From Bacteriovoracaceae bacterium (GTDB lineage: Bacteria; Bdellovibrionota; Bacteriovoracia; Bacteriovoracales; Bacteriovoracaceae): 40,127 bases of DNA. The notes beneath the pieces were generated by a model, which was given only the letters and a program-made list of their open reading frames with translations, ran no database searches and had not been told where the DNA came from. Location of the stretch: the NCBI GenBank assembly GCA_028378565.1, contig JAONMX010000011.1:1-40127 (forward strand), given 5' to 3'. Position numbers and translations under genes: made by a program. Below, one piece after another: positions 10,457 through 36,860 of this stretch (within the stretch, counting starts at the first letter, position 1; every line of letters starts with the position of its first letter).

Positions 10457-10584
10457 ACCTATCCAAATTTTAGTAAAATTTTTTATAAACTATTTATTAA
10501 TGAATGGGAAAAAAATGATCAATATTTAGAGATAGACACAGTGTGTAGTGTACAAAAAAAAACTAATTTCAAAATGTTTCCAAT

Positions 10585-10613
10585 ATGTTAACATTCATGT
10601 AAATTTTAAAAGC
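10585..10613 (+). promoter_or_regulatory. Weak candidate promoter for the nuo operon
   Basis: In the 187-base gap between the divergent mfd and nuoA starts, a TTTCCA-like -35 near 10577 to 10582, about 17 bases and a TAAATT-like -10 near 10600 to 10605 is the best pair seen for the plus strand, each about 4 of 6 to consensus. The gap also holds poly-A tracts and an ACAC-GTGT repeat near 10537. Nothing stronger is visible, so the assignment is tentative. Confidence 0.2.
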
Positions 10614-10643
10614 TCTAAACTATATTCTCATAGGAGAACATCC

Positions 10644-11084
10644 ATGTCGTCACCGAATTTAGACGTGTATATGCCGATTGTTATTTTAATGGCCTTTGGT
10701 GTGGTAGCCGTAGTTGGCGCCTTATTATTTGGAAGGTTATTAAGACCTAGTAACCCTAATACTCTCAAAGAATCACCATATGAATGTGGTGAAGAACCTA
10801 TTGGTTCGGCTTGGTCTAATTTTAACGTAAGATTTTATGTTGTTTCTCTTATCTTTATAATCTTTGATGTTGAGGGAGCTTTAATGTTTCCTGTTGCAGC
10901 AGTTTTCAAAAAGTTTAATGAGATTGGTGAAGGGGCTGTACTGCTTGGATCTTTATTGCTTTTTATTCTCGTTCTAGTCTTAGGTATTATCTATTGCTGG
11001 AGAAAGGGAGACCTTGATTGGGTTAAAAGTTTTAAACTTACAGACGAACAAATTAAACAACTTAACGGTATTGAGGAAAGCTAA
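10644..11084 (+). CDS. nuoA: NADH-quinone oxidoreductase subunit A
   Basis: Small membrane subunit of respiratory complex I at the joint between membrane and peripheral arms. I use the ATG at 10644 because AGGAG sits 7 bases upstream and the protein then begins just before the first membrane helix (MSSPNLDVYMPIVILM); the frame is open back to 10548 but that extension is not hydrophobic or conserved. Of 146 residues, three helices are visible. The conserved loop ESPYECGEEP has its Cys at 48, and the acidic pair of the second helix is present (FDVE, D75 and E77). The stop overlaps the nuoH ATG by one base, so nuoB-G are not inserted here as they are in many genomes. Confidence 0.95.
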   Translation: MSSPNLDVYMPIVILMAFGVVAVVGALLFGRLLRPSNPNTLKESPYECGEEPIGSAWSNFNVRFYVVSLIFIIFDVEGALMFPVAAVFKKFNEIGEGAVLLGSLLLFILVLVLGIIYCWRKGDLDWVKSFKLTDEQIKQLNGIEES

Positions 11085-12280
11085 TGAATTCAACAATTGT
11101 TTCTTACCTTTCTCAGTTTGAAGGGCATAAAAAGTTTATAAGCATTCTCTCTGAGGCCTTAGGTTTTGATGCTACTTATCTAGTAGCTTTTTTAGTTTTC
11201 TTTTTAGCATCCTTTATTGTTGTTAATGTAATGGCACTTGTTGGTGGCCTTGGTACATATGCAGAAAGAAAAATTTCAGCTGATATTCAGATGAGACAAG
11301 GTCCAAATAGAGTTGGTCCTTACGGTTTACTTCAATTTCTTGCTGATGGTGTGAAAATGATTACGAAGGAAGATATTATTCCTCGTAATGCTGATAAACT
11401 GTTATTCACGATTGCACCTTTGATGGCCCTTGTTGGTGTCTTTGGATCACTTGCAGTTGTTCCATTTTCAAGTGGTTTTATACTGACTGATTTAAATGTA
11501 GGTGTCTTTTATCTTATTGGTGTTTCTTCATTAGTAGGTGTAGCAATTTTCCTAGGTGGATACTCTTCTAACTCAAAATGGTCAATGCTTGGTGGTATGA
11601 GAGGAGCTTCACAGATTATTTCTTACGAAGTGCCAGTAACACTTTCAATTTTAGCAATTGTTATTTTAGCCGGTGGATTATCATTTAGTACTCTTGTTGA
11701 AGCACAGGGTGGGATGCCTCATCAGTGGTATATATTACATAACCCATTCACCTTTATAGGCTTCTTTGTTTTCTTTATTGGTGCCCTGGCAGAAACAAAC
11801 AGAGCACCTTTCGATTTACCTGAAGCGGAGTCTGAACTTGTTTCAGGTTATCATACGGAATATACAGGTATGAGATTCGGGTTTTTTGCGCTCGCAGAAT
11901 ATATTGAAGTTTTTGTAGTGTGTGGAGTAGCTGCTGCTGCCTTCTTAGGAGGATATAAAGTTCCTTTTGATTTAGGTACTGGAGATCTTCTTGTTAACAC
12001 TCTACATTTACCACCTATCATTGGTAGAAATATCGGACAGATACTTCAAGTTGGTTCTTTTGTTACTAAAACATTAGTACTTTATTATATTGTCATTTGG
12101 ATTCGTTGGACTTTCCCAAGACTGAGAGTTGATCATCTTATGACGTTGTGTTGGAAATACTTAACTCCGATTGCACTTTTCAATCTAGTGGGTTGTGCTG
12201 TTTGGTTATATGCATTTGATGGACAATCTGTATGGGAGCTATTATCTCATCTCGGTGGTGCTTCATCTGGTGGACATTAA
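11084..12280 (+). CDS. nuoH: NADH-quinone oxidoreductase subunit H
   Basis: Membrane subunit that forms the quinone chamber with NuoB and NuoD and starts the proton path. Diagnostic motifs: AERKISADIQMRQGPNRVGP from residue 60, LQFLADGVKMITKEDI, RGASQIISYEV, and AETNRAPFDLPEAESELVSGYHTEYTG from residue 235 with the acidic cluster intact. At 398 residues it is slightly longer than the E. coli protein (325), mainly at the N-terminus and an insertion near 295-315. About eight to nine membrane helices are expected. The start is translationally coupled to nuoA. Confidence 0.97.
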   Translation: MNSTIVSYLSQFEGHKKFISILSEALGFDATYLVAFLVFFLASFIVVNVMALVGGLGTYAERKISADIQMRQGPNRVGPYGLLQFLADGVKMITKEDIIPRNADKLLFTIAPLMALVGVFGSLAVVPFSSGFILTDLNVGVFYLIGVSSLVGVAIFLGGYSSNSKWSMLGGMRGASQIISYEVPVTLSILAIVILAGGLSFSTLVEAQGGMPHQWYILHNPFTFIGFFVFFIGALAETNRAPFDLPEAESELVSGYHTEYTGMRFGFFALAEYIEVFVVCGVAAAAFLGGYKVPFDLGTGDLLVNTLHLPPIIGRNIGQILQVGSFVTKTLVLYYIVIWIRWTFPRLRVDHLMTLCWKYLTPIALFNLVGCAVWLYAFDGQSVWELLSHLGGASSGGH

Positions 12281-12299
12281 AAAGGACTAGAGGTTAATA

Positions 12300-12833
12300 A
12301 TGTTTGATAATATCTTATTTATTCTATCAGCTTCACTTACAGTCGTAGGTGCTTTTTCAGTTGTTCTTACAAAAAACTTAATGCACTCATGTGTTTATCT
12401 TCTTGCTGCTCTTTTTGGTACGGCAGGATTATATGCAACATTAGGAGCTGACTTTTTAGCTGCAACTCAGTTGGTTGTTTATGTTGGTGGTGTTGTTATT
12501 CTTATGCTTTTCGCTGTGATGTTAACAGGTGGAGATCAAGACAAAGAAAATAAATTTGGAATTACGAAAGTACCATCAATGGGTAACTTTAAAACTTTTC
12601 TTGCAGGTGGAGTATCAGCTTTAGTAATAGCTTTAGTTGTCTTAAGACTTATAGCGAATGTTGCTAAACAAAACCCACAGGGTGAGTTGCCGGAGTTTAC
12701 GAGTTCTGTCGTAGCGATTGGAACAAAACTTGTGACTGATCATGTACTAGCGTTTGAGATTAGTTCTGTTTTACTACTTGGTGCACTTGTTGGTGCAGCT
12801 GTTATCGCTAGACCAGCAAAAAGAGGAGAATAA
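12300..12833 (+). CDS. nuoJ: NADH-quinone oxidoreductase subunit J
   Basis: Five-helix membrane subunit of complex I next to NuoA, H and K. Family features are KNLMHSCVYLLAALFGTAGLY and the segment ADFLAATQLVVYVGGVVILMLFAVML, including the glycine-rich stretch that forms the pi-bulge in helix 3. At 177 residues the length is typical. An AGAGG site precedes the ATG, 19 bases after nuoH; nuoK begins at the base after its stop. Confidence 0.96.
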   Translation: MFDNILFILSASLTVVGAFSVVLTKNLMHSCVYLLAALFGTAGLYATLGADFLAATQLVVYVGGVVILMLFAVMLTGGDQDKENKFGITKVPSMGNFKTFLAGGVSALVIALVVLRLIANVAKQNPQGELPEFTSSVVAIGTKLVTDHVLAFEISSVLLLGALVGAAVIARPAKRGE

Positions 12834-13139
12834 ATGATTACGCTATCTTCTTATTTAATGATTTCATTGGCACTTTTCCTATCTGGATTAGTTGTAATGA
12901 TTTCTAGAAAAAATATTATTGCAATACTGCTTGGTATTGAATTGATACTAAATGCTGCAGCTTTAAACTTTGTAGCATATACAAGATTTGTTAATGACAA
13001 TATTGAAGGACATATAATGAGTCTTTTTATTATTGTTATCGCAGCGGCGGAAGCAGCTGTTGGACTTGGGATTGTTATTAGATTTTTCCAAATGAGAGAA
13101 AGTATACATATTGACGATGCAGCTCAGCTGCAAAGCTAA
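12834..13139 (+). CDS. nuoK: NADH-quinone oxidoreductase subunit K
   Basis: Three-helix MrpC-like subunit that contributes to the first proton pathway. Its 101 residues carry both membrane glutamates used in this family: E36 in LLGIELILNAAALNFVAY and E73 in IAAAEAAVGLGIVI. It starts directly at the nuoJ stop with an AGGAG site inside the nuoJ end. nuoL follows after 16 bases. Confidence 0.97.
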   Translation: MITLSSYLMISLALFLSGLVVMISRKNIIAILLGIELILNAAALNFVAYTRFVNDNIEGHIMSLFIIVIAAAEAAVGLGIVIRFFQMRESIHIDDAAQLQS

Positions 13140-13155
13140 ATAAGGAATTAAACAT

Positions 13156-15321
13156 ATGGATTACACAATCTGGGCCATAGCTCCTATTGTTCTACTCCCA
13201 TTCTTCGCTTTTGTGATTAATGCATTTATTGTAAAGAAATTCACAAAGCTTGCAGTGACTATAAGTTGTGCTGCAATTTTAGGATCGTTTGGGTTTGCTT
13301 CAAAGGTTTTCAGTGATTTTGTTTTCGGTAAATATGCTGAAGATTATCATATTCATAAAGTATTTAATTGGTTTGATCTCAGTTATGGATCTCAAATCTT
13401 TAAATTAGATATGGGTATCTATATAGATAATATGACAGCTGTAATGCTTTTTATGGTTACAGGTGTTGCATCATTAATTCATATCTTTTCAACATACTAC
13501 ATGGCCGAAGATAAAAGGTTTGGAAGATTCTTTGTTTATATGAGTCTTTTTACATCTGCTATGCTCGGACTCGTTCTTTCAGATAATTTACTTTCAGTAT
13601 TTATCTTTTGGGAACTAATGGGCTTTTGTTCTTATAGTCTTATTGGTTTCTATTATGAGAAAGAGGGTGCAGGTAATGCATCAATGAAAGCTTTTATGAC
13701 AACGAGAATTGGAGACGTTTTCTTCCTCTTAGGGATACTCGCCATTTGGTCTGTTGTTGGGAATGTAACTTTCGTTGATATTTACAGAGCAATTTCTGAT
13801 GGATCATTTAATGGTGCTTTTGCTCTTGGTATTCCACTAGCTACGTTTGCAGGGTTTTCTATCTTTATGGGAACTATTGGGAAATCAGCTCAGTTTCCAC
13901 TTCAAGTTTGGCTACCAGATGCCATGTTTGGGCCGACTCCATGTTCGGCACTAATTCACGCAGCGACCATGGTTGCTGCTGGTGTTTATCTTTCATTAAG
14001 AATGTATCCATTAATGGATGCAGGTAACCTAACAACTTTAATTGCTTATATTGGTGGGATAACCGCCTTTGGTGCCGCAACGATTGCCCTTGTTCAGACA
14101 GATATTAAAGCAGTGCTGGCTTATTCAACAATTTCACAACTGGGATATATGGTTTTAGGGGTTGGTGTCGGTTCATATAATGCAGCTTTTATGCACTTAA
14201 TTACTCACGCTGTTTTTAAAGCATGTCTATTCCTAAGTGCAGGTTCAGTTATTCATTCACTTCATGATCATCATACTCATGAGCATGTTCAAGACATGCC
14301 GAGAATGGGTGGCCTGAGAAAGAAAATGCCTTATACATTCTGGGCCATGATGTTCTGTACACTCGCAATTGCTGGTGTGCCATTCTTCTCAGGTTTTGTT
14401 TCAAAAGATAGAATACTTGGTGATGCCCTTATAATGGGAATTGCCAGCAAAAGCTACATCATTCCAGCACTTCTAGGTTTTGCAGGTGCACTATTAACAG
14501 CATTCTATATGTTTAGAATGATGTTCTTAACATTCTTTGGTGAGCCTAGAGATAAAGATCTATACGACCATACTAAAAAAGAAACTTTTAGTTTAAACAG
14601 AAACTTTCCACTTCTACTTTTATCAGTTTTCACTCTAGGTGTTTTCTTTAGTGGTTCTTTAACAGGGCAAGGTTTTGTTAAAGTAGCTGGAGAAAGATAT
14701 GAGTGGTTTAAGGTTCTAATTACAAAACCAAAAGTAGAAAAATTTGCTTCATACGAAAGACAGCCATGGGGTAATACAGATATCAAATCTAACTTTCAGT
14801 TATCAAAAGCTGAATATGATCCAACATATGGTCTTCCGGCAAAAGAAGCACATCATGTCCATCACTGGCATTTAGTTGGAGCTTTAATAAGTATCTTTAT
14901 AGCATTCACTGGAATCTTTATTGCTTACATGATGTACATAAAGAAAGCTTGGAATCCAGGTCGCTGGGTATCTATGTTCACAAGATGGTATAGAGCTCTA
15001 CAGAATAAGTATTATTTTGATGACTTTTATATTGGCGGAATAATCAAAAAAGGATTACTTCCGCTCAATAACCTTTTGGCCTACATCGATATGGGTCTTT
15101 ATGACAGGTATGCAGTTGATGGTTGGGAAAAAGTAAACAGAGCATTTTTCACTGTGGCCAAGTGGTTCGACAATATCGTAGTTGATACAGTCGCCGTTGA
15201 TGGTACTGGTGCAAGTGTTCGTTTGTTTAACGTAGTATTAAGAATGGTTCAGTCTGGGAAGATACAATTATACTTTATGATCATTGTATTTACTCTAGTT
15301 GGATTTATTTGGACTTTATAA
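13156..15321 (+). CDS. nuoL: NADH-quinone oxidoreductase subunit L
   Basis: Distal antiporter-like proton-pumping subunit, which also carries the long lateral helix. At 721 residues it is longer than the E. coli protein (613), with extra sequence before the last helices. Key features: the first half-channel glutamate E153 in FWELMGFCSYSLIG, the helix-7 lysine K243 in IGKSAQFPLQVWLPDAM, LVQTDIKAVLAYSTISQLGYM, the lysine in HAVFKACLFLSAGSVIH, and VPFFSGFVSKD. The C-terminal lateral helix runs from the segment YYFDDFYIGGI to a final membrane anchor at about 700-720. An AAGGA site precedes the ATG. Confidence 0.97.
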   Translation: MDYTIWAIAPIVLLPFFAFVINAFIVKKFTKLAVTISCAAILGSFGFASKVFSDFVFGKYAEDYHIHKVFNWFDLSYGSQIFKLDMGIYIDNMTAVMLFMVTGVASLIHIFSTYYMAEDKRFGRFFVYMSLFTSAMLGLVLSDNLLSVFIFWELMGFCSYSLIGFYYEKEGAGNASMKAFMTTRIGDVFFLLGILAIWSVVGNVTFVDIYRAISDGSFNGAFALGIPLATFAGFSIFMGTIGKSAQFPLQVWLPDAMFGPTPCSALIHAATMVAAGVYLSLRMYPLMDAGNLTTLIAYIGGITAFGAATIALVQTDIKAVLAYSTISQLGYMVLGVGVGSYNAAFMHLITHAVFKACLFLSAGSVIHSLHDHHTHEHVQDMPRMGGLRKKMPYTFWAMMFCTLAIAGVPFFSGFVSKDRILGDALIMGIASKSYIIPALLGFAGALLTAFYMFRMMFLTFFGEPRDKDLYDHTKKETFSLNRNFPLLLLSVFTLGVFFSGSLTGQGFVKVAGERYEWFKVLITKPKVEKFASYERQPWGNTDIKSNFQLSKAEYDPTYGLPAKEAHHVHHWHLVGALISIFIAFTGIFIAYMMYIKKAWNPGRWVSMFTRWYRALQNKYYFDDFYIGGIIKKGLLPLNNLLAYIDMGLYDRYAVDGWEKVNRAFFTVAKWFDNIVVDTVAVDGTGASVRLFNVVLRMVQSGKIQLYFMIIVFTLVGFIWTL

Positions 15322-15365
15322 TTTATTAAAAACTTTAAAAGAGAAACATAGAAAGGAGTTACCCT

Positions 15366-16898
15366 GTGCACGGCTCATCTCACTTATTAAATTGGATTTT
15401 ATGGATGCCATTTATTGGCGTTCTAGGAAACTTAATCATCCCTAGTAAAAAAGCAAATGCTATAAGATGGTGGAGTTTAATTAACACTGCGATTACTTTT
15501 ATCTTAACTTTAGTATTGTACAAGCAGTTCGATACTTCTGTTGCCGGAATGCAGGAAGCTTTTAACTTCTCCATACCTTGGATAAAGCAATTTAATATTT
15601 TCTATACTGTAGGAGTTGATGGCATCTCGCTACCAATGATCTTATTAACAGGATTACTTTTCTTTATTTGTATTCTTAGTAGTTGGACAGTAGAAAAATC
15701 AGTAAAGGGTTACTTTGCACTATTTTTATTCTTGCAAGGTTCAGTTATGGGAGTCTTCTTAAGTTTAGACTTTTTCCTTTTCTATGTTTTCTGGGAAGTA
15801 ATGCTTATTCCAATGTTTTTTCTTATCGGTATTTGGGGTGGAGAAAACAGAGAATATGCAGCAGTTAAGTTCTTTCTCTATACATTCTTCGGCTCAATTT
15901 TAATGCTTGTAGGTATGGTTGCTCTTTATTATGCAAAAGGAAAAGGGGTTGATGCTTTCAACATTCTTGCTCTTTCAGGCGGACATTTTACAGATTTAAA
16001 ATTAAGTATGTTTGGTACAGAGTTTAGTTTCTCAAAACTCTTCTTCGTCTTTATGTTTATTGGTTTTGCAATTAAAGTTCCTGTGTTTCCATTTCATACA
16101 TGGTTACCACATGCTCACGTACAAGCACCTACTGCAGTATCTGTAATACTTGCAGGTGTTTTACTTAAAATGGGGACATATGGATTTTTAAGAATTGCCT
16201 ACCCTATTTTCCCGGCCGCAAGTGTTCACTTTGCTGATTGTATTGCATGGCTAGGACTTATAAATGTTATCTACGGAGCGTTCTGTGCCATGGCACAAAC
16301 AGATGTGAAAAAACTTGTAGCTTACTCATCTGTATCTCACATGGGCTTTGTTATGTTAGGCCTTGCTGCAATGACAATTCAGGGTATGAATGGTGCTGTT
16401 CTTCAAATGTTTAATCACGGAACTTCAACAGCAATGATGTTCTTACTGATTGGTATTCTTTATGAAAGATCACATCACAGATGGATTGTAAGACCAGACG
16501 GAAGTAAAGGTTTTGGTGGACTTTATACACAATTACCAAAGTTCTCAATTGTCTTTATTATCGCAATGTTTGCCTCAATGGGCCTTCCAGGATTATCAGG
16601 CTTCATATCAGAAGCACTTATCTTTTTAGGTATTTATGAAAAATATACAACAATAACAGTTCTAGCATTACTTGGACTTTTACTAGGTGCTGCTTATCTT
16701 CTTTGGATGTTCAAAAGAATGTTCTTTGGTGATGTTATTGAAGAATGTAAATCATATACAGATATGAATAAAAGAGAAATTGCTTACATGCTTCCACTTT
16801 GTGTTGCAGTGATTGTTTTTGGAATTTATCCATCTCCAATTCTTAACATTATGAAAGCATCAGTTGGTAAATTGGTTACTTTATTAGGAACTTACTAG
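15366..16898 (+). CDS. nuoM: NADH-quinone oxidoreductase subunit M
   Basis: Middle antiporter-like proton-pumping subunit. It uses a GTG start, with AAGGAG 8 to 13 bases upstream in the 44-base gap after nuoL. Of 510 residues, the catalytic set is present: E144 in FYVFWEVMLIPMFFLIG, K237 in FAIKVPVFPFHTWLPHAH, and QTDVKKLVAYSSVSHMGFV. The motif GLPGLSGFISEALI marks the discontinuous helix near residue 410. About fourteen helices are expected. nuoN follows after 9 bases. Confidence 0.97.
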   Translation: MHGSSHLLNWILWMPFIGVLGNLIIPSKKANAIRWWSLINTAITFILTLVLYKQFDTSVAGMQEAFNFSIPWIKQFNIFYTVGVDGISLPMILLTGLLFFICILSSWTVEKSVKGYFALFLFLQGSVMGVFLSLDFFLFYVFWEVMLIPMFFLIGIWGGENREYAAVKFFLYTFFGSILMLVGMVALYYAKGKGVDAFNILALSGGHFTDLKLSMFGTEFSFSKLFFVFMFIGFAIKVPVFPFHTWLPHAHVQAPTAVSVILAGVLLKMGTYGFLRIAYPIFPAASVHFADCIAWLGLINVIYGAFCAMAQTDVKKLVAYSSVSHMGFVMLGLAAMTIQGMNGAVLQMFNHGTSTAMMFLLIGILYERSHHRWIVRPDGSKGFGGLYTQLPKFSIVFIIAMFASMGLPGLSGFISEALIFLGIYEKYTTITVLALLGLLLGAAYLLWMFKRMFFGDVIEECKSYTDMNKREIAYMLPLCVAVIVFGIYPSPILNIMKASVGKLVTLLGTY

Positions 16899-16907
16899 GA
16901 ATTAAAA

Positions 16908-18374
16908 ATGGGTCTTAATTATTTAGTTAGTCTTGGTCATTATGTTCCAGAACTAATTGTTTGTATTACAATGTTTTCCTTAATTCTTATTGAGGCAGCA
17001 CATGATAAAGATGCAACTTCAAAACCTCTTATTGGTTTGACTTCTTTTATTGGCTTGATTTCAGCATTTGTTATACTAGTTTTAAATTTATCTAAGCCAG
17101 GCTTATCGATTTTTACAAACTCAATCGTAATTGATTCTTTTGGTACTTTTGCAAAAATTATCATGGTACTTGGTACGCTGGGTGCGATATATATTGCAGA
17201 ACAGTCTAGTGATATTTATCAAAAACTAAAGTCTGAATTTTCAATAATGGCGATGGGTGTACTTGTGGGAGGTATGTTACTTACCTCAGCAAATAACATG
17301 CTTCTTCTTTATATTGGTTTAGAAACACTTTCAATTTTAAGTTATGTCATGGCCACCCTTAAAAAGAATAATGAAAGATCTGGTGAAGCAGGACTTAAAT
17401 ACTCCCTATATGGCGGAATCAGTGCAGGTATAATGCTATTTGGGATGAGTCATGTTTTTGGTGTTCTTGGAACAATTAATTTTTCAGAAATGGCCACAAT
17501 GATACCAAACTTAACTTCTGATCAAATGTTAATATTGATTCCAAGTTTTCTACTTTTCTTTGTAGGTCTTGGTTATAAAATCGCTTGTGTTCCATTTCAT
17601 ATGTGGTCACCAGATGTTTACGAAGGAAGTCCTATTCCTGTGACAGCTTTTTTTGCTATTGTTCCTAAGATTGCAGGTATGGCTGTTATCGCAAGACTAA
17701 CGATGCTTTTATTTAATAATGATTCATTACTCTCTGTTAGTTGGATTGGTGCTCTTAGTGTCATGGCTGCCTTAACAATGACTGTCGGAAATATCTCGGC
17801 TATCGGCCAAAGAAGTGTAAAGAGAATGCTCGCATACTCTTCTATCGGGCATGCTGGAGTAATGCTTCTAGGTATTGTTGTTGTAAGTGAGATTGGCTTA
17901 AGAAGCTTACTTTTTTATGCCTTCACTTACCTCTTTATGACTTTAGTTGCTTTCTATATTGTTTCATTTGTAAACGATACCTATGGAAACGATCATTTTG
18001 ATCGATTTAGCGGACTTATATATAAACATCCAATAATGACAATCTCAATGATAATTGTGATGTTCAGCTTAGCTGGAATTCCACCACTAAGCGGCTTTGT
18101 CGCAAAATTTAATATATTCTCAGCAGTTGTTGCTAAGAAGTATTATGTATTAGCAATAATTGCAGGGATAAACTCTGTCATTTCACTTTATTATTATATG
18201 AAAATTATAAGACTAATGGTCTTTAAAACTTCCGAGTCAGAGAATATGATTTTAGGTTTAACTCTTAGGAACCAACTAATAATTGGGGCTTTAACAGTAC
18301 CTGTTGTAACACTCGGAGTATTTTGGGAGAAAATCATTGGCGTAGCAGAACAAGCAACACTTTTGATTCAGTAA
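16908..18374 (+). CDS. nuoN: NADH-quinone oxidoreductase subunit N
   Basis: Proximal antiporter-like proton-pumping subunit. Its 488 residues carry E139 in LLYIGLETLSILSYVM, K224 in GLGYKIACVPFHMWSPDVYEGSP, GQRSVKRMLAYSSIGHAGVM, and GIPPLSGFVAKF with the C-terminal lysine of the channel. An AGGA site precedes the ATG. This is the last recognisable nuo gene, but transcription clearly continues: the next membrane-protein gene begins 3 bases after the stop. Confidence 0.97.
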   Translation: MGLNYLVSLGHYVPELIVCITMFSLILIEAAHDKDATSKPLIGLTSFIGLISAFVILVLNLSKPGLSIFTNSIVIDSFGTFAKIIMVLGTLGAIYIAEQSSDIYQKLKSEFSIMAMGVLVGGMLLTSANNMLLLYIGLETLSILSYVMATLKKNNERSGEAGLKYSLYGGISAGIMLFGMSHVFGVLGTINFSEMATMIPNLTSDQMLILIPSFLLFFVGLGYKIACVPFHMWSPDVYEGSPIPVTAFFAIVPKIAGMAVIARLTMLLFNNDSLLSVSWIGALSVMAALTMTVGNISAIGQRSVKRMLAYSSIGHAGVMLLGIVVVSEIGLRSLLFYAFTYLFMTLVAFYIVSFVNDTYGNDHFDRFSGLIYKHPIMTISMIIVMFSLAGIPPLSGFVAKFNIFSAVVAKKYYVLAIIAGINSVISLYYYMKIIRLMVFKTSESENMILGLTLRNQLIIGALTVPVVTLGVFWEKIIGVAEQATLLIQ

Positions 18375-18377
18375 CGA

Positions 18378-18659
18378 ATGATATTAGAAGAAATTATAGG
18401 TTTAATTTTAGCGGCAGGAATTATAATTCTGCCGTTTTTGTTTTTGGGTAAGAAGTTAGATACTAGAGTTAAGAGGACTGTTGGTAAAATAGATAAGAAC
18501 CCTATTAGCGATACAACAATTTTAACTCTTATGATGATCATTATTGTTCTGGTCAATCACTCTATTTTTAAAAAGGTTGGACTAGCATTCTCTGTATACG
18601 AATTGATAATCGTAGTATTGGCAGTATTAGTCGCAAAAGGAATTAAAGAGAAAAGATAA
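18378..18659 (+). CDS. Small membrane protein, probable highly diverged NuoA paralogue
   Basis: Ninety-three residues with helices at about 4-24, 46-62 and 68-86. Not recognisable by motif, but laid beside the NuoA of this operon it fits throughout: first helix ending in FLFLGKKL (NuoA ALLFGRLL), a polar loop ending KNPISD (NuoA EEPIGS), a second helix ILTLMMIIIVLVNHSIFKK (NuoA YVVSLIFIIFDVEGALMFP), and a last helix ending in GIKEKR (NuoA CWRKGD). The loop has no YEC cysteine, and the helix-2 acidic pair D/E becomes V/H. It sits 3 bases behind nuoN with no clear ribosome binding site, so it depends on coupling. Homology is by eye only. Confidence 0.6.
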   Translation: MILEEIIGLILAAGIIILPFLFLGKKLDTRVKRTVGKIDKNPISDTTILTLMMIIIVLVNHSIFKKVGLAFSVYELIIVVLAVLVAKGIKEKR

Positions 18660-18660
18660 T

Positions 18661-19491
18661 ATGAGTATATTACTATACACAACATATTTTTTGGTAACCT
18701 TTACCCTCTTTGGTATCATTCTGTATATAGAAAGCTTTTGTTGTGATTATGCTGGATCTATAAATGAATCTAAAAAGCTTTCATTGAACCATTTTAAAAA
18801 AGTGGCCGTAAGAAGCTTTTTTAAATATGTAGATTATATTAGAGAAGTAAAAAGAAACATTATTTTCCTAATGATTACACTTTTTATGTTTATATCATTT
18901 GGATTAGGTGGATATTTTACAGAAGCTAATTTTATAACAGCAAAGATAAATCAAATATGGATTTTACTTTTCTTAAGCACCTTTATCGTATTAAGCATTC
19001 ATAAAAATTATAATAAAACGAATATACTATTAATGGTGATTGTTCTTATTAATATTGTAATTGTTAACGGTAATATGGATATTGATTTAATTGTAGCGAA
19101 TCAAATTGAAGTAAATCTACTAGGTATACCCAAGTATGGTATTTTGGGCATGCCAGGAACCTTTTTGTTATTGATTTATATAATAGCAAATAGAAAGAAC
19201 TCAACGGACTTTGAAATAAATGTAAGAACAATGATGTTAATATGCTTTGGGCTTGTTGTCTTTATGGGTAGAGATGAATTATTACAGTATGAAAGTCTAA
19301 GTGAAATAAATAACAATGCTATACACTTATTGAAAATTTCAGTATTTATATTAAAGTATTTCATATTATCTTTAGTAATAAATTTACTTGTTGTATTTTC
19401 TAAAAATAAAATTATTAACCAATCCCCTACACACTTTAACCTAATAGTAGCTTTTTTAATATTTGTTGATTTTATGTTGAGGTTAAGATGA
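18661..19491 (+). CDS. Membrane protein, probable highly diverged NuoH paralogue
   Basis: A 276-residue multi-pass protein with about seven helices. By-eye alignment to NuoH: helix 1 then a charged loop (IESFCCDYAGSINESKK) where NuoH has AERKISADIQ; an amphipathic stretch RSFFKYVDYIREVKRN matching YGLLQFLADGVKMITKED; KYGILGMPGTFLLLIYIIA matching QWYILHNPFTFIGFFVFFIGALA; and an end, LKYFILSLVINLLVVFSKNK, matching TKTLVLYYIVIWIRWTFPRL. The quinone-chamber segment ETNRAPFDLPEAESE is replaced by a short NRKNSTDFE. It overlaps the next gene by 4 bases (ATGA). An unrelated membrane protein cannot be excluded without profile searches. Confidence 0.6.
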   Translation: MSILLYTTYFLVTFTLFGIILYIESFCCDYAGSINESKKLSLNHFKKVAVRSFFKYVDYIREVKRNIIFLMITLFMFISFGLGGYFTEANFITAKINQIWILLFLSTFIVLSIHKNYNKTNILLMVIVLINIVIVNGNMDIDLIVANQIEVNLLGIPKYGILGMPGTFLLLIYIIANRKNSTDFEINVRTMMLICFGLVVFMGRDELLQYESLSEINNNAIHLLKISVFILKYFILSLVINLLVVFSKNKIINQSPTHFNLIVAFLIFVDFMLRLR

Positions 19492-19880
19492 TAGAGGCCT
19501 TTGCAATATTATCACTATTACTTCTCTCAATAACCAATGGTAAAATTGAAAAAATTTTAATGTTTTTGATGGCAACTGTAACGGCCTATATTCTTTATTC
19601 TAGTATTGAAGAAATAGCTCTTCTAATATGTTTATTACCTATTCCACATATCTATAAAAGTAATAAGAATATAATTAAAAGACGAAATAGAACGAGCATA
19701 TTTTGGAGAAGATGCTATCTCATTTTAACGGTAGTGCTCTTCACATCCCTTATTGAGAAAGGTTTTGTTCTACAAAACAAGGTACTATTCACATCTATGC
19801 TACAAGTAGAGTATTACCTTCTTCCACTTGTTATAATTTTTATTACTTTTTATATAATAAGACTGGGGAGGAAATCATGA
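19488..19880 (+). CDS. Membrane protein, probable highly diverged NuoJ paralogue
   Basis: Its 130 residues form about four to five helices. Aligned by eye to NuoJ: LSITNGKIEKILMFLMATVT corresponds to SVVLTKNLMHSCVYLLAALF, and IEEIALLICLLPIPHIYKS to ADFLAATQLVVYVGGVVIL. The last helix LQVEYYLLPLVIIFITFYII ends in RLGRKS, as NuoJ ends in RPAKRGE. The glycine-rich pi-bulge segment is missing and there is a basic patch (KRRNR, residues 64-68). GAGG precedes the ATG, which overlaps the previous stop by 4 bases. Confidence 0.55.
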   Translation: MIEAFAILSLLLLSITNGKIEKILMFLMATVTAYILYSSIEEIALLICLLPIPHIYKSNKNIIKRRNRTSIFWRRCYLILTVVLFTSLIEKGFVLQNKVLFTSMLQVEYYLLPLVIIFITFYIIRLGRKS

Positions 19881-20104
19881 CTTATTTTGTGATTGTGTTT
19901 GCTTCTTTTGTTCTTGCATTAAACCTTATCAAAAGAAAAAAGAAGGTCTTAGACTTTCAGGCAATTCTAATAATGCAGCTTTTAACAATGATAATCTTAA
20001 AAGTAACATTGGTAGAAGTACCGAAAGAAATATTTTATGTACTGGTGATTGTGTTTTTAACGATTAATATAACTAATGAGTTGGATGGTGATCAGCATGA
20101 GTGA
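19877..20104 (+). CDS. Small membrane protein, probable highly diverged NuoK paralogue
   Basis: Only 75 residues, predicted as three helices, like NuoK. YFVIVFASFVLALNLIKRKK fits NuoK YLMISLALFLSGLVVMISRK, FQAILIMQLLTMI fits IAILLGIELILNA, and FYVLVIVFLTINI fits FIIVIAAAEAAVG. Both functional glutamates of NuoK would be lost (E36 to Gln, E73 to Leu in this alignment). A strong GGGGAGG site precedes the ATG, and the start overlaps the previous stop by 4 bases. Confidence 0.55.
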   Translation: MTYFVIVFASFVLALNLIKRKKKVLDFQAILIMQLLTMIILKVTLVEVPKEIFYVLVIVFLTINITNELDGDQHE

Positions 20105-21506
20105 AGCCGTATTTTTAATCATTCCAATGGTTTTACTCTTGTTAAAGTCTTTTATAACAGACAAGATAGGAAAACTTAATTATGATGTGATTATTGTCTT
20201 CACAGCTCTTATTATGTTTATTCTATCGATTTTTACTTCTGGTACATATTTAATAGAGAACAGCCTTCTTAAAATCATATCTTTGTCATATGAATTAAGT
20301 TATACGACCACTCTTAGTGGTCTTGTAGGCTTCCTCGTTTTAAGTCAGTTGAAGTACATAAATTCTATAACTTCTGCACTTGTCTTGCTAATGAACTATG
20401 TAATAGGGATAAATTCAATATTATTTTTGTTGATTGCATACTTTATTATAAAAATATATGAAGAAAAAACTTTGAAAAATATAGCATCTCTTGTTGTATT
20501 AAATATAGCCATTACACTTTATTTCTCACATACAGACTTAGCAGTAAGTATTATAGGAATACTAGTCCTTTTTCGGCTTGTTTTTGAAAAAAGCGTAGGT
20601 GAAACAATTTTTCTAACATTAATGACAATTGGCCTGCTGGAAGTTCAAAGTATGCCGAGTCTGTATATGTTATATTTTTTAGCGTTTCTATCATGCGGAT
20701 ATAAGATAAATAATATCTCTAAAGCTAAAAGCCTTAAAGATATGAGAAGAATAATGTTCTTTATTTTTATATCAATTGGTTTAGTTATGTCTGTCATGAT
20801 CGATATAAACTTTTTAACTATGTTAATGTTCTTATTAATAATAACGCTTATAGATGACTCCTATGAGATTTTGAAATATGGCAAAGATATACGAATCTCA
20901 CTTGCCGTGAATCATATCGTAGTCATTTTGTTGCTTGGTGCTGTTGTTAAAAACCTTTCTTATGTCATTGAAAAGGATTCGGGTAATTTGGGTTTATGGC
21001 TAATTTCTATTTTGTTTGTATTATTAATAAACCTTTTGCTGTCTCGAAAGTATCTTGACCCCCGGAAAATATATTGTGGAGTTACTGCATCACAGGTTTT
21101 TTTACTATGCATATCGTGCATGATTTATAGCAGTAGTTATTATGGAAATATTGAAAAATCTACAGTGTTAAGCTATAACGTTCCGTTTTTAATATCTGTT
21201 ACTTCTTTAATTATTTCATCTTATTTTCTATTTTTCATTCTTGTTAAGGATAGTAAAAAAATACAATATATTGAAATGATCGTAAGTAAGTTAAATATTA
21301 AAACATCTAGCAGTAATTCTCGTTTGATTTATATTAAAAAAAATATGAATCAAACAAATCAAAACTTTAATAATTTTATAAAAAGCCCATCGCAGCTGCT
21401 TGAGCTTATTGGGATCTATAAAAACGATTCTTTAATCTTTTTCATTATATCTTTAATGATGATATTTTTTGCATTAGTTAGAATTCAGTCAATAGGTGAA
21501 CTATGA
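20097..21506 (+). CDS. Multi-pass membrane protein, probable highly diverged NuoL paralogue
   Basis: I prefer the ATG at 20097 (469 residues) over 20076, because GGATGG lies before it and nothing precedes the earlier ATG. Twelve or more helices are likely. Segments parallel NuoL in order: NYVIGINSILFLLIAYFII (NuoL SDNLLSVFIFWELMGF, Glu lost); SLKDMRRIMFFIFISIGLVM (NuoL DIKAVLAYSTISQLGYM); KYGKDIRISLAVNHIVVILL (NuoL GLRKKMPYTFWAMMFCTLAI); and a C-terminal polar helix plus anchor, LIFFIISLMMIFFALVRI, like the NuoL lateral helix and anchor. The WLPDAM region and the helix lysines are not recognisable. It is about 250 residues shorter than the NuoL upstream. Confidence 0.6.
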   Translation: MSEAVFLIIPMVLLLLKSFITDKIGKLNYDVIIVFTALIMFILSIFTSGTYLIENSLLKIISLSYELSYTTTLSGLVGFLVLSQLKYINSITSALVLLMNYVIGINSILFLLIAYFIIKIYEEKTLKNIASLVVLNIAITLYFSHTDLAVSIIGILVLFRLVFEKSVGETIFLTLMTIGLLEVQSMPSLYMLYFLAFLSCGYKINNISKAKSLKDMRRIMFFIFISIGLVMSVMIDINFLTMLMFLLIITLIDDSYEILKYGKDIRISLAVNHIVVILLLGAVVKNLSYVIEKDSGNLGLWLISILFVLLINLLLSRKYLDPRKIYCGVTASQVFLLCISCMIYSSSYYGNIEKSTVLSYNVPFLISVTSLIISSYFLFFILVKDSKKIQYIEMIVSKLNIKTSSSNSRLIYIKKNMNQTNQNFNNFIKSPSQLLELIGIYKNDSLIFFIISLMMIFFALVRIQSIGEL

Positions 21507-22381
21507 TTGATAATTTGTATAAAAATATATCTTATATATTACTTGCTGTTTGCATGGTCCTTCTTGGGGTAAATTTTGATGCTTATGGATTAGGTGTCTA
21601 TAAGCTTTTTTACATCTATGTATTATTCGGACTTTATGCTTTGTATGAAAAAAGGACTTTTGATATTGTCCATATTTTTATTTTAGGAGTTGCCTCTTTT
21701 TATGATCTTCATGTATTGATTCCTATTTATGTTCTATTTCTTTCTTTAAAAATGCTTCAAGAAGTAAATCTTGAAAGCCTTAAAAGTGCAACGATGCTTA
21801 TCATAACTGCGATTTATTTAGTTCTTATGATGTTGCATATATATGAAGATGAAGGTGCACATTTAGATAAGATTATAGGTTTTAAGTATTATATTGATAA
21901 AATGCCAATGCTGATAAACTCTGCCTTTGTAGTTGCTATAATTGCAGGCATCAAAAAGAGCAAACGCTTAGAAAAAAATATACTAATTATATTTCAATCT
22001 TGTTTTTTATATTATCTTTTAAAGGAAAGTGAGCAATATGTTTTCTATTTTACGCTCATCTCTTTATCCCTGTTTATCTTCTCATTCTTACAAGACTTGA
22101 AGCTTTCCCTGAAAGACTTTTTAATAAAGACTCTCATACTGGCCACCGTGTTTTTATCAAATGATATGATTGAGCTTATATCATTTTTATCATTAATAAT
22201 TATATTTAAAAATTTGAAATTAGATAATAACTTAAGAAACTTATTTATATGTATTCCTACATTTATAATTGTTCTTAATGCCTCACACGAGCTTAATAAT
22301 GTAAACCTTCTGCTATTAGTAATGTTAGTAGTGTTTATAGCTTATGTTTATATTGAAGAGAGGTTTAAGTATGTTGAATAA
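21503..22381 (+). CDS. Multi-pass membrane protein, probable reduced NuoM paralogue
   Basis: 292 residues with about nine to ten helices, against 510 in NuoM. The weakest match of the set by sequence, but its position is right and two stretches fit: LGVASFYDLHVLIPIYVLFL against GVFLSLDFFLFYVFWEVMLI (Glu lost), and a helix, then LQDLKLSLKDFLIKTLILAT, against MAQTDVKKLVAYSSVSHMGF. The half containing K237 and the C-terminal helices of NuoM appear to be gone. Starts with ATGA overlap to the previous gene and an AGGTG site. If it is not NuoM-derived, it is simply an unknown membrane protein of this operon. Confidence 0.5.
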   Translation: MIDNLYKNISYILLAVCMVLLGVNFDAYGLGVYKLFYIYVLFGLYALYEKRTFDIVHIFILGVASFYDLHVLIPIYVLFLSLKMLQEVNLESLKSATMLIITAIYLVLMMLHIYEDEGAHLDKIIGFKYYIDKMPMLINSAFVVAIIAGIKKSKRLEKNILIIFQSCFLYYLLKESEQYVFYFTLISLSLFIFSFLQDLKLSLKDFLIKTLILATVFLSNDMIELISFLSLIIIFKNLKLDNNLRNLFICIPTFIIVLNASHELNNVNLLLLVMLVVFIAYVYIEERFKYVE

Positions 22382-23609
22382 TGAAAACCTTTTAATGTAT
22401 ATTTGTGTATATGTTGCCTTCACCTTCTGTTCGATTGTGGCCTTCAATTACTTAAAGCTTAAAGAAAACTTCCTGAAGATATCTCTGATCATAATCGTTT
22501 TTCTATGGTCGGCTTTACTCTACGACAGTGCACCGACTGTACTTTTTATGAACTTCAGTTGGGGTCAGGAGGATTTGTTAAACTATAACCTTTCCATTTC
22601 GTTGATATCAGTTTTTTTGATGTTTAATTTTAAGAATCGATCGATAACAATTAAAGAACTAACGATCTATTACTTTACCGTGATGTTGATGTTTCTCCTC
22701 GCCGGAACAACAAGTCTTATTTGGCTCTATGTTTTTTCAATAATTATATTTTTATTAAATAGAAGCTTGTTTGAAAAAAAATCTAAGTCATTGTTTAACT
22801 TAAGGTTCCTAATCTTAACTTTATATTTATTATTTGGAGTTATTGCATCGGGGGATGGTAGTTTTGTTGCTAACGATAACAACATCTTGTACTTGACTGT
22901 TTCTGGTGGACTATCTATTTTTGTTCTTGTTTGTGTACTGCTTCCTTATAACGTATTTAATAAAGAGAAATCTTCTGATATTGCAATACTACATAGCTTC
23001 TTTACAATACCTCTCATATATTCAAAGTGGTTAGTTCACATACAAGATCTATATTTGGAACTTCAAACAGAAACTTTAGAAAACTCTTTTTACTTATGCG
23101 CTGTTCTTGTAACAATATTCTCATTGTTAATTTTAATAAAAGGGTTTCAAAAAAATAAAATTGAGGCTTATTACGCTATATTTACCCAGTTAATGTTAAT
23201 TCTTTTACCGGTTGTTTTTCATACATCAATTTCTAATACGGACTTAATGGATATTAATAAATATTCAGTTATGTTGGCCATAGTTCTGCTGCTTTCCTAT
23301 ATGTGTATAAATCGCCATGATAAAAGTCGATTAGATTCTATTCTATCAATAAATCTATTATTGTTTTCATCCTTCTTGTTACTAATTATGTCTGTTTTTG
23401 GAAATGTTAATCTCATATTGCCTCTATGGAGTATCTCGAAAAACTTGACCATGATACTTGTCTCTATTAGTTTAGTATTGGTTATTATTAGTGTTAGATT
23501 ACTTAAAATTAACTATAAAGCTGACCAATTTCATTCAAATATAAGTTATAATTCTATAGGTACAGTAATTGTATTATTAATATATTATGGAATTATAGTT
23601 TATAAATAA
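22371..23609 (+). CDS. Multi-pass membrane protein, probable highly diverged NuoN paralogue
   Basis: The ATG at 22371 has GAGAGG 7 bases upstream and overlaps the previous gene by 11 bases; the open frame reaches back to 22344 without a ribosome site. 412 residues, about thirteen helices. The middle fits NuoN well by eye: VCVLLPYNVFNKEKSSDIAI against IACVPFHMWSPDVYEGSPIP, HSFFTIPLIYSKWLVHI against AFFAIVPKIAGMAVIAR, and KGFQKNKIEAYYAIFTQLML against SAIGQRSVKRMLAYSSIGHA. The helix-5 glutamate and helix-7 lysine are not visible at the matching places. Last of the seven; the GYF/TPR gene starts within its stop codon. Confidence 0.58.
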   Translation: MLNNENLLMYICVYVAFTFCSIVAFNYLKLKENFLKISLIIIVFLWSALLYDSAPTVLFMNFSWGQEDLLNYNLSISLISVFLMFNFKNRSITIKELTIYYFTVMLMFLLAGTTSLIWLYVFSIIIFLLNRSLFEKKSKSLFNLRFLILTLYLLFGVIASGDGSFVANDNNILYLTVSGGLSIFVLVCVLLPYNVFNKEKSSDIAILHSFFTIPLIYSKWLVHIQDLYLELQTETLENSFYLCAVLVTIFSLLILIKGFQKNKIEAYYAIFTQLMLILLPVVFHTSISNTDLMDINKYSVMLAIVLLLSYMCINRHDKSRLDSILSINLLLFSSFLLLIMSVFGNVNLILPLWSISKNLTMILVSISLVLVIISVRLLKINYKADQFHSNISYNSIGTVIVLLIYYGIIVYK

Positions 23610-26600
23610 TGGTTAAATATCGAATAAAATTAAAAGACAACCGAGTTATTGGACCCTTTACAAATAATCAAGTTGGGGAGCTTTTTATTAATAATAAGCT
23701 TACCGGTGAAGAGTCTTATCAAGAATTTCCGGCCGGCGATTGGGTTGACTTAGAAAACCATCCAAACCTTGATAAATTATTTCAAAGAATTCTTGCAGGC
23801 TCATTAACGATGAGTGATCTATCTGAACCAGATGATAATACACGTGCAAAAATAAAGCACGCAAAACTTGCTCGAGTAAATAAAGATGGTGAGAGAAGAG
23901 AAGAACTCCAGCAAAAAAAGAATAAGGTAATTGAAATAGAGAAAAAGGCAAAACTTGAAGAGTTTCAGGAATTCAAGTTTGATAAAAATACAAATATAAA
24001 AATAGATTACGAAAAGCTTCAAGAGAAACAAGATAAAAAAGCTAAAGAAGAAGAACCTCCGGGTATTGAAAAAACAAAAATAATCTCAAAAAATATACTC
24101 GAAGATTTAGATAAAACGGTAGTTTTAGCTAAAAACCAAATACCTGAAAAAAATGAAGATAAAGAAGATAGTGACTCTCAAGAAAGTGTTGTACAAGAGG
24201 ACGATGAAATAGAAGAGGGTCTATCTAATGAAGAGGAAGTAGAAGATACAAGCATAAATCAAGATGAAGCTACACAGATGGTAAACCTAAATGATCTACT
24301 GCCAACAGCAAAGAATGAAGCTGAAGAAGTAGAGCAGGAAATGAAAGTGGCCAGAGCGGAAATTGATAATGACGAAATCGTTGATAAAAAAAGCAAGTCT
24401 AAGAAAATAAAAAAAGATGACAAAAAAGATAAGAAGAAAATGAAGCCAATAGTGGCATTTTCTATCCTTGTCATAATATTCATGTTGTTAAACCCAAGTG
24501 AAGAAGAAACGAAGAAGTCGATTGATCCAGTTAAATATAAGTTTCGTGCTCTGGTAACTAAGCCAGTTGAAAATGGTGTTAAAGCGAATAAATTATATGA
24601 AGAAGGTATGAAGTATTATTATAAGAGTAATTATAAGAATAAAATTTTTGCTGCTGAAAGTTTTAAAAAATCTCTTGAAGAAAAATTTGCAGAAAATAAG
24701 TCTTTAGGGATGCTTATACTAACCTATGGTGAATTGTTTAAAAATGCATATAATAAAACAGTAGCTGCAAAGCAAATGTTTAACCTTGTTAAAATAACAC
24801 GATCAAAAATTTATAAAGATATAAATATTGCTATAGGTACAGCTTTATTTTATGCAAATGCCGGAAAGAATGAGACTGCAATAAATATATTAGAAAATTA
24901 TATTAGGCTAAATAAACCCTCGGTAAAACTATTTTCACATTATATGGATATCGTAATTGATGTTGGAGATATTGTTAAGGCTAAAAAGATATTTGAAAAA
25001 CTTGAGCAGGCACCTACTAAGAAGCCTGAAACATATTTAAGTTATTCAAAGTATTACTCTTTGGATGAGAAGTTTGAAGAAGGAAAGAAATCAGTAATTG
25101 AGGGATTAAAGAAGTACCCCAAAAGTGTTCCCTTAATGCTTGAATACTGTAAATACTTGCTTCGTGATCAAGAGATTAAGGCCCTGGCTCAAGTTCTAAA
25201 AAATATTGAGTCCTACAGAGCAGAAGATAATCCAAAATATTTCGCTAAATACTTAGAGTATATGGGTATGCTTAGTGCAATAACAGGTGATAATAAGCAA
25301 GCGGTAATATTGTTTAAGCAATCTCTTGCAATATTTGAGAGTGATTCACTTAGAAGCAAGCTAGCATCACTTGATATAGGTGGAAGTAGTGCTGTTGAAA
25401 ACTTAATTATTGAATCAAAAGCAATTGATCTTATCCAGCAATCTCAAAAGTATGCAGCAGAAAGAAACTGGAGTGATGCATATAAGGCGGCTATTGGGGC
25501 AGTTGATTTATATGAGACCTACATTCCAGCAAAGCTTAATCTTGCTGATTTACAGGTTAAGCGTGGATACTTTGAATCGGCCCTGCAAACTTTAAATGAG
25601 CTAAAAAGTGACTTCACTATTAATCCAAAAATTTATTTAGCGTTAATAAAAGCAAATATCGAAGCAAGAAAGTTTACAGATGCGAAAATGGAAATGAATG
25701 CCATGTCGACAAGTCCGAAGCTTGTTGAATCGTATGAGTTTGCAGCTCTTTGGGGAGATTTTTATAAACTTTCAAAGAATATAAAAATGGCTTTAAGTTG
25801 GTATGCAAAAGCTATATCTAGGAACCCACTTGCAAATACTGAACATTTCAAAATTGGCAAAATATATTTTGAAAACGGTTACTTTAAAAAAGCGAAACAC
25901 TATTTTCAAAATGCAATTACATTAGATCCAATTAATCTTAAGTACCAAACTTCATATTCAGATGTTTTATACGAGCTCGAGGGGGCGGTCACAGCGATTA
26001 GTTATGTTAGAGATCTCTTAAAAGACAGAGTTGATAATCCACTTCTAATGGGTAAGATTGCAATTTATTATCATCGTAATGGAGAAATTAAATCTTATGA
26101 AAGAATGAAGCAAGATATTGAAAAACTTTCACAACAAGATCCGGCTCTTTATAGATTTTTAATTCAAGTAGGTGAAATTGAAGGTGACATGGAAAAAGTT
26201 ATTTTCAATATGGAAAAGTTATTAGAGTTAACACCTTCTGATGTGAAGATGTGGATGAATCTCGCTCAAGCATATTTTAATGTGAATAAGTACAATGATG
26301 CCTTGTACGCTACAGAGCAAATAACAAATAGGCTTCAAAGTTATCCACGAGCACATTACTTTAGGGCTAAAGTTAAAATAAAAATGGCCAAGCTAGATGA
26401 AGCACTTAAAGACGCACAGTTAGAAATAAAATATAACCCAGACATTTACGAGGGTTATTATGTTCAGGGTGAAATCTATAGACTACAAAATAAGATGCCA
26501 AAGGCTTTAAAGTCTTTAGAAAAAGCAATTACCAAAGATCCAAAAAGCGTAGAAACCTTAATTGCTATGGGATGGATTAAAATGGCTCAAAGATACTTTG

Positions 26601-26800
26601 AGCAGGCACGCGACCTTTATATGAGAGCTAAGGCCAGGGAGCCAGATAACCCAGAAATTAGGAAATCACTTGGTATTATTTATCAAAAGATAGGCCAGTC
26701 CCAGCTTGCTCTTGAAGAGTTTGAGATATACCTGAAACTAAACCCTGGTGCGTCAGACCGACGAGCAATTGAGTCTAACATTAGGGCCATTTCACGCTAA
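23609..26800 (+). CDS. GYF-domain, single-membrane-span TPR protein
   Basis: 1063 residues in three parts. Residues 1-60 match a GYF_2-type domain (YRIKLKDNRVIGPFTNNQVGELF, then DWVDLENHP), a probable peptide-binding module. Residues 60-275 are highly charged, with acidic runs and a lysine-rich end. A membrane helix at about 279-294 (PIVAFSILVIIFMLL) should leave the GYF part in the cytoplasm and the rest in the periplasm. From 320 to the end there are many TPR-like repeats, clearest near 800-1050 (for example ALKSLEKAITKDPKSVETLIAMG). The ATG overlaps the stop of the NuoN-like gene by one base, with no ribosome site, so it is coupled to the membrane block. I infer a scaffold or assembly role; no enzyme motif is seen. 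Confidence 0.8.
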   Translation: MVKYRIKLKDNRVIGPFTNNQVGELFINNKLTGEESYQEFPAGDWVDLENHPNLDKLFQRILAGSLTMSDLSEPDDNTRAKIKHAKLARVNKDGERREELQQKKNKVIEIEKKAKLEEFQEFKFDKNTNIKIDYEKLQEKQDKKAKEEEPPGIEKTKIISKNILEDLDKTVVLAKNQIPEKNEDKEDSDSQESVVQEDDEIEEGLSNEEEVEDTSINQDEATQMVNLNDLLPTAKNEAEEVEQEMKVARAEIDNDEIVDKKSKSKKIKKDDKKDKKKMKPIVAFSILVIIFMLLNPSEEETKKSIDPVKYKFRALVTKPVENGVKANKLYEEGMKYYYKSNYKNKIFAAESFKKSLEEKFAENKSLGMLILTYGELFKNAYNKTVAAKQMFNLVKITRSKIYKDINIAIGTALFYANAGKNETAINILENYIRLNKPSVKLFSHYMDIVIDVGDIVKAKKIFEKLEQAPTKKPETYLSYSKYYSLDEKFEEGKKSVIEGLKKYPKSVPLMLEYCKYLLRDQEIKALAQVLKNIESYRAEDNPKYFAKYLEYMGMLSAITGDNKQAVILFKQSLAIFESDSLRSKLASLDIGGSSAVENLIIESKAIDLIQQSQKYAAERNWSDAYKAAIGAVDLYETYIPAKLNLADLQVKRGYFESALQTLNELKSDFTINPKIYLALIKANIEARKFTDAKMEMNAMSTSPKLVESYEFAALWGDFYKLSKNIKMALSWYAKAISRNPLANTEHFKIGKIYFENGYFKKAKHYFQNAITLDPINLKYQTSYSDVLYELEGAVTAISYVRDLLKDRVDNPLLMGKIAIYYHRNGEIKSYERMKQDIEKLSQQDPALYRFLIQVGEIEGDMEKVIFNMEKLLELTPSDVKMWMNLAQAYFNVNKYNDALYATEQITNRLQSYPRAHYFRAKVKIKMAKLDEALKDAQLEIKYNPDIYEGYYVQGEIYRLQNKMPKALKSLEKAITKDPKSVETLIAMGWIKMAQRYFEQARDLYMRAKAREPDNPEIRKSLGIIYQKIGQSQLALEEFEIYLKLNPGASDRRAIESNIRAISR

Positions 26801-36819: not shown

Positions 36820-36860
36820 GGTAGGAGACTAACGAACTTATTGAAATGCATGGAGGGTCA

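Follow-up and report, generated by a model that had tools for sequence, protein, structure and literature searches.

A second, degenerate complex I in the Bacteriovoracaceae and its possible use as a membrane scaffold

What is encoded by seven membrane-protein genes which follow directly on the last gene of a nuo operon, and none of which has a match above cut-off in Pfam or NCBIfam? The question is raised by a stretch of 40,127 nucleotides (nt) from a bacterium of the family Bacteriovoracaceae (contig JAONMX010000011.1 of assembly GCA_028378565.1; below, the window). Named relatives of its NuoN place the host in the Bacteriovoracaceae/Halobacteriovoraceae group. The end of the canonical nuoN gene, which closes a set of genes for the membrane arm of respiratory complex I, is followed here after a gap of 4 nt by seven open reading frames (ORFs), all intact and on the plus strand, and then by a gene for a tetratricopeptide repeat (TPR) protein. 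Most of the seven genes overlap and the run extends into the TPR gene at position 23609. They are here called A', H', J', K', L', M' and N' (A'-N'). A reading made from the sequence alone had described them as unrecognised, intact and mostly overlapping ORFs, which is what was found. Five of its lengths were confirmed; L' and N' have 476 and 421 amino acids (aa) instead of 469 and 412, the latter figures being due to later starts.

As judged by comparison with their relatives in the family, A'-N' are the membrane arm of a complex I, with subunits homologous to those of Nuo, which in the window can be seen directly only for H'. This second complex I is probably no longer an energy converter. 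We hold with middling confidence that it has been decommissioned and is now retained as a membrane scaffold, without catalytic activity, for a lipoprotein, X, which is described below.

Identity of the seven genes

The stretch downstream of nuoN was read in about sixty genomes of the family, and in 42 of them exactly seven membrane ORFs precede the TPR gene. All seven A'-N' genes were read in 52 genomes, including ones without canonical nuo genes, at the same site (from nuoN or mfd to the TPR gene) and in the same order. As the survey of related genomes suggested in the sequence-only reading shows, the run is not due to chance. The length order K'<A'<J'<H' is found in 49 of these 52 genomes; genomes of one genus are not independent in such counts. 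Between the window species and its congener G001 (genomes are cited by our own handles) the canonical Nuo proteins are 85-95% identical, and A'-N' only 23-38%.

The relatives form a ladder from recognisable to unrecognisable sequences. In genus g15 (G015, G104, G111, G115, G119, G122, G124, G132) all seven proteins are near full length, and BLAST puts each with its own Nuo subunit, in order, with bit scores of 47-57 for A, 211-221 for H, 46-58 for J, 51-60 for K, 276-298 for L, 294-314 for M and 97-118 for N. In a seven by seven matrix of profile alignments (hhalign) against canonical Nuo, the probability on the diagonal is 98.6-100 for g15 and 87.3-99.9 for a class of intermediates (G020, G033, G087, G062, G064, G035), the respective values being 98.9 and 87.3 for A', 99.1 and 92.8 for J', 98.6 and 94.6 for K', 100 and 99.2 for L', and 100 and 99.5 for M'. 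Outside the diagonal the signal is strong only between L, M and N, which are homologous to one another. For the third class, the 28 shortest sets, to which that of the window belongs, a match to canonical Nuo is limited to H' (85.4) and, faintly, N' (7.7); against the intermediates the values rise to 97.8 for H' and 69.8 for N', and the short N' stays below 3 with every class other than intermediate N'. The comparison of hidden Markov model (HMM) profiles proposed earlier therefore works for all seven proteins in g15 and the intermediates, and for H' and faintly N' in window-type sets. The one-for-one match of the g15 orthologues bears out the claimed origin from a complex I membrane arm in the order A-H-J-K-L-M-N.

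In the window itself H' is proven to be NuoH by sequence and fold. The final H' profile, from which the window and G001 were held out, matches it with E = 8e-9. Its AlphaFold2 model (predicted local distance difference test, pLDDT, 78.8; predicted template modelling score 0.77) retrieves with Foldseek complex I NuoH/ND1 chains in all 50 PDB matches listed, with modest E-values of 0.04-0.39. The same profile gave none below E 0.2 for the other window proteins, iterative HMM recruitment reached H' and no other window protein, and no worthwhile signal or reliable alignment was obtained for window-type A', J', K', L', M' and N' with Nuo profiles. The AlphaFold2 model of N', built from 19 divergent sequences, was too poor to use (pLDDT 55.5, with meaningless Foldseek matches). 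Within the window, subunit match and predicted fold thus stand for H'; the remaining six are putatively assigned by position, order and the ladder of relatives.

Origin, peripheral arm and decay

A'-N' had been taken for a diverged copy of the adjacent operon, and this is contradicted by the trees. Phylogenies were built with IQ-TREE for NuoH, L, M and N. In each, the g15 sequences fall into a single clade together with the degenerate ones (support 100, 97, 74 and 100, respectively), apart from a clade of the canonical Nuo copies of the family (99-100). The canonical clade groups with the outgroups L147/L148, a Planctomycetota and another bacterium, at 96-100 in NuoH, M and N and at 51 in NuoL; the branches of the degenerate sequences are very long, and little weight can be put on the branching order within them. 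The two neighbouring sets therefore belong to different complex I lineages, with which the fused CD subunit of the second agrees. A tandem duplicate of the adjacent nuo operon was accordingly rejected, as the primed set is neither sister to nor nested in the canonical Nuo of the family.

The set is also more than the membrane arm that had been described. In nearly every first-tested genome with A'-N' beside nuoN, excepting the incomplete window assembly, a second NuoB/NuoD pair is present, and most related genomes encode a second peripheral operon, unlinked to A'-N', composed of the lipoprotein X (about 485-554 aa), B', CD' and I'. Genes E, F and G of the NADH module are found between CD' and I' in G015, G104 and G031, degenerate E', F' and G' in G006, and remnants of F'/G' in G066 and G107; in nearly all genomes the module is absent from the second operon or degenerate, no alternative donor having been sought. 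X was found in 96 of 115 family genomes and, outside the family, with a single weak match among 291 genomes of the phylum. It has about eight nearly invariant cysteines and no match in Pfam, NCBIfam or PDB. X and A'-N' occur together in 51 genomes, A'-N' only in 4, X only in 9 and neither in 6 (Fisher p 0.005, genomes not independent).

Most genomes of the family are metagenome assemblies in which absences depend on completeness, and the absence of A'-N' was scored only at the nuoN/mfd-TPR site, so that a relocated set could be missed. In the window's own assembly (56% complete, 166 contigs) neither a second B'/CD' nor X was found, and the X, B', CD' and I' of this species are presumed from G001. 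Several genomes (g32, G002 and G004) keep canonical nuo genes and carry neither X nor A'-N', and G005 has a partial A'-N' set; loss of the whole A'-N' set occurred more than once.

The peripheral operon varies in its surroundings. In G112, G120 and G083 (L186, L187, L188; g24) full-length H-I-J-K-L-M-N genes lie directly upstream of a degenerate X-B'-CD'-I', a canonical set being present elsewhere too. Two X-B'-CD'-I' operons, both degenerate, are found in G106 (L201, L202), whose assembly has 9% contamination. In several genomes a DesA-like fatty-acid desaturase gene directly follows I' (L189:10329-11411, L188:10231-11313), a possible link to the envelope.

Key residues have the roles generally known for complex I and are numbered as in E. 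coli. The g15 membrane copies keep essentially all of them. In alignable degenerate relatives the proton-path residues (NuoK E36/E72, the Glu and Lys of NuoL/M/N, the acidic loop of NuoH, NuoA D79/E81) are lost stepwise. G020 shows NuoA D79/E81 changed to Q, NuoK E72 to H, NuoL K229 to N and K399 to W, and NuoM E407 to T; one or both membrane glutamates are lost from K' of alignable intermediates; and many or most key residues are gone in G033, G087, G062, G064, G035, G022, G017, G059, G029 and G019. Both equivalents of NuoCD H220/H224 at the quinone site are kept only in G015, G104 and G031, the same three whose second operon has recognisable E, F and G. The C-terminal xDR and HRGxEK-like motif of CD' are widely kept, and the N2 and N6 Fe-S ligands of B' and I' form a mosaic across lineages, being lost in many. 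Predicted helices, all counted by one crude hydropathy method, average 9.5 in short-form L' and 7.3 in short-form M', compared to 13.9 in canonical NuoL and 11.5 in canonical NuoM. As far as sequences can tell, the chemistry of the second complex I is lost and its fold signatures are kept. The loss of quinone and proton residues claimed earlier could thus be read in the longer, alignable relatives; the window copy is more degenerate still, only its H' being alignable, and its A', J', K', L', M' and N' have presumably undergone the same losses.

That selection keeps the frames open, as had been argued, is supported by a neutral substitution model: already at 0.1-0.25 substitutions per site the frames of H', L', M' and N' are closed in all or nearly all runs, 0 of 200 being still open at 0.25. 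Synonymous divergence (dS) in a same-genus pair, estimated by the NG86 method, is about 1 to 2, far above this range. The ratio of nonsynonymous divergence (dN) to dS, omega, is about 0.1-0.6 for the membrane subunits where dS is finite, and about 0.01-0.14 for canonical genes of the same pairs; dS is near saturation and these values are rough. Degenerate lineages have dN values from several times to over 10 times those of canonical nuo. In g15 the conservation of the second set is close to that of the canonical one (79-91% identity in the pairs compared). Selection on the second set, as estimated from these rates, is purifying but much relaxed.

Possible functions of the second complex

The sequences of the family show an ancestor-like form in g15 (for the peripheral operon also in G031), with X, B, fused CD, E, F, G and I together with A-H-J-K-L-M-N and all checked catalytic residues. 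In most other lineages E/F/G, the quinone site, the proton-path Glu, Lys and His and many of the L, M and N helices are lost or degraded, with patterns and degrees that differ, and the subunit set, the CD' fold signature and the family-specific lipoprotein are retained. The remaining proteins may still assemble into a complex-I-shaped, catalytically silent scaffold, spanning cytoplasm and inner membrane, which would hold X, and perhaps the TPR protein too, at the envelope. Selection would then act on assembly and anchoring and not on chemistry, which would explain the fast sequence change, the shrinkage and the open frames together. Decay appears to have taken first the NADH module and the quinone site, then the pump residues, then the antiporter helices and next, in some lineages, the membrane arm as a whole; X goes last, an order which points to X as the part that matters. 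A wider claim, made a shade more tentatively, is that repeatedly across the family, Halobacteriovorax included, a whole complex I with both its arms was turned into an assembly of the envelope that neither does redox chemistry nor pumps, and that serves a lipoprotein specific to the family; this would be, to our knowledge, the first complex I used purely as architecture.

Several points weigh against the scaffold. Its link to X is drawn from operon order and co-occurrence. In G018 X persists without B'CD'I' or A'-N', and the g24/G069 clade has no A'-N' beside nuoN but retains X-B'-CD'-I' or, at a minimum, X, so that the membrane arm is not always needed. G036 (88% complete) keeps A'-N' and shows no X or CD'. 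Finally, the four N2 cysteines of B' are all kept in about half of the lineages, and a pure scaffold would not need them.

These cysteines are central to the best of the alternatives, which we consider unlikely, namely that the second complex performs a new chemistry in which the Fe-S clusters of B' and I' sense redox state or form a short electron conduit, with no NADH oxidation, quinone reduction or pumping. Many degenerate lineages retain all four B' cysteines and both I' cluster motifs, among them G003, G108, G071, G101 (the genus of Halobacteriovorax marinus), G008, G067 and G100, and the nearly invariant cysteines of X would also fit. However, the B' ligands are gone in G011, G033, G005, G024, G112, G120, G035, G010, G065, G106, G077, G060, G078, G021 and G087, so the retained function cannot need N2 in general, and in G001, the nearest relative of the window, one B' ligand and most of I' are missing.

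Somewhat less likely again is slow decay of a set with no function of its own, the frames staying open because closure would cut off translation of the TPR gene behind them, or because of the toxicity of misfolded fragments. The overlapping genes that run into the TPR gene, the pace of sequence change relative to canonical nuo and the repeated whole-set losses are all in its favour, but the X-B'-CD'-I' operon, which is unlinked and not upstream of the TPR gene, decays in parallel and is equally retained. In some genomes a gap of 30-100 nt precedes the TPR gene, so translational coupling is not needed there, and both omega below 1 and the persistence of all seven genes in 52 genomes speak against mere decay.

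Among the suggestions of the sequence-only reading was that the set is a structural partner or dimer half of the canonical complex I beside it, or helps to assemble it. Such a role would suit genes lying directly downstream of nuoN in one apparent operon, but is very improbable. NuoH was undetectable anywhere in G010, G065, G081 and G106 (90-99% complete) and in the less complete G012, G016, G036, G060 and G077. A'-N', or most of them, are kept between mfd and the TPR gene in the first four of these and in G012, G016, G036 and G077. The only NuoD-family proteins of the first four are CD', and the NuoD-family matches in genomes without NuoH are degenerate CD' wherever the locus was read. Since A'-N' persist without a working complex I, the set does not serve the canonical one, and the canonical nuo genes kept without A'-N' in g32, G002 and G004 stand against a partnership from the other side; this reading was rejected. 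Least credible of all is that the proteins are unrelated to Nuo and resemble it only in length and hydrophobicity, as the lack of a significant profile match for six of the seven window proteins might suggest, in view of the unmistakable g15 orthologues in the same order, the identity of window H' and the conserved size order.

Compared to known systems, the second complex shares homologous B, CD, I, A, H, J, K, L, M and N with respiratory complex I of the E. coli type (NDH-1, with fused NuoCD). The g15 set is full-length and functional-looking by sequence; most second-set lineages, unlike NDH-1, are without the NADH module, the quinone-site histidines, the proton-path Glu and Lys and many helices, about half lack Fe-S ligands, and X is an additional component. 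Loss of E/F/G with the Q-module and membrane arm present is likewise found in cyanobacterial and chloroplast NDH-1 and in Fpo, but these retain both the quinone site and the pump residues and translocate protons, whereas the second complex has lost both. NuoL/M/N-type subunits are also reused outside complex I in Mrp antiporters, group 4 hydrogenases and the DAB system. These remain ion- or redox-active, in distinction to the second complex, which is without antiporter-like active residues and keeps the full complex I subunit set. A keyword search of the open-access literature, which covers few subscription journals, found no description of such a complex.

Complex I is among the most conserved energy-converting machines. 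Parallel catalytic loss with a kept subunit set, even where no working complex I remains, separates what its shape and assembly need from what its catalysis needs, and a natural series is available from intact (genus g15) through half-decayed (G020) to unrecognisable (window). The findings also point to some further function, probably at the envelope, in a group with predatory members, and offer a test case for the origin of multi-subunit pseudoenzymes.

The window locus

Features of the window from the canonical membrane-arm genes to the TPR gene (TM, predicted transmembrane helices)
Feature	Position	Strand	Size and basis of assignment
Canonical nuoA-H-J-K-L-M-N	10548..18374	+	178 (from GTG), 398, 177, 101, 721, 510, 488 aa; intact; key residues present
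A' (NuoA-position subunit of the putative degenerate second complex I)	18378..18659	+	93 aa, 3 TM; position and order
H' (degenerate NuoH)	18661..19491	+	276 aa, 7 TM; held-out profile, hhalign, AlphaFold2/Foldseek
J' (NuoJ-position subunit)	19488..19880	+	130 aa; synteny, g15 orthologue
K' (NuoK-position subunit)	19877..20104	+	75 aa, 3 TM; synteny, g15 orthologue
L' (NuoL-position subunit, shortened)	20076..21506	+	476 aa, ~11 TM; synteny, g15 orthologue
M' (NuoM-position subunit, about half length)	21503..22381	+	292 aa, ~6 TM; synteny, g15 orthologue
N' (NuoN-position subunit)	22344..23609	+	421 aa, ~11 TM; synteny, hhalign to intermediate N', g15 orthologue
TPR protein	23609..26800	+	1063 aa, one TM near residue 285, TPR array beyond TM; directly after N'

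The TPR gene is found next to nuoN or mfd in family genomes both with and without A'-N'. Its product has a long acidic and Lys-rich N-terminal part ahead of the single TM, and the Lys-rich stretch before the TM suggests an N-in topology with a periplasmic TPR array.

The canonical nuo set of the window is without B, C, D and I, which are encoded elsewhere in the assembly (G000:C24). In G001, G003, G008, G011 and G020 the canonical nuo genes are intact and no NuoF (PF01512) was found anywhere in the genome; their canonical complex I is apparently without an NADH module and would need another electron donor. PF00346 matches canonical NuoD in two pieces (profile positions 1-171 and 193-271) in the family members searched, which suggests a lineage-specific change near profile positions 172-192.

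Further downstream in the window (29343-30077, 30074-33085, 36846-38201) a region with a gene for a family B DNA polymerase and unrecognised ORFs lies between two integrase-family genes and is perhaps a mobile element.

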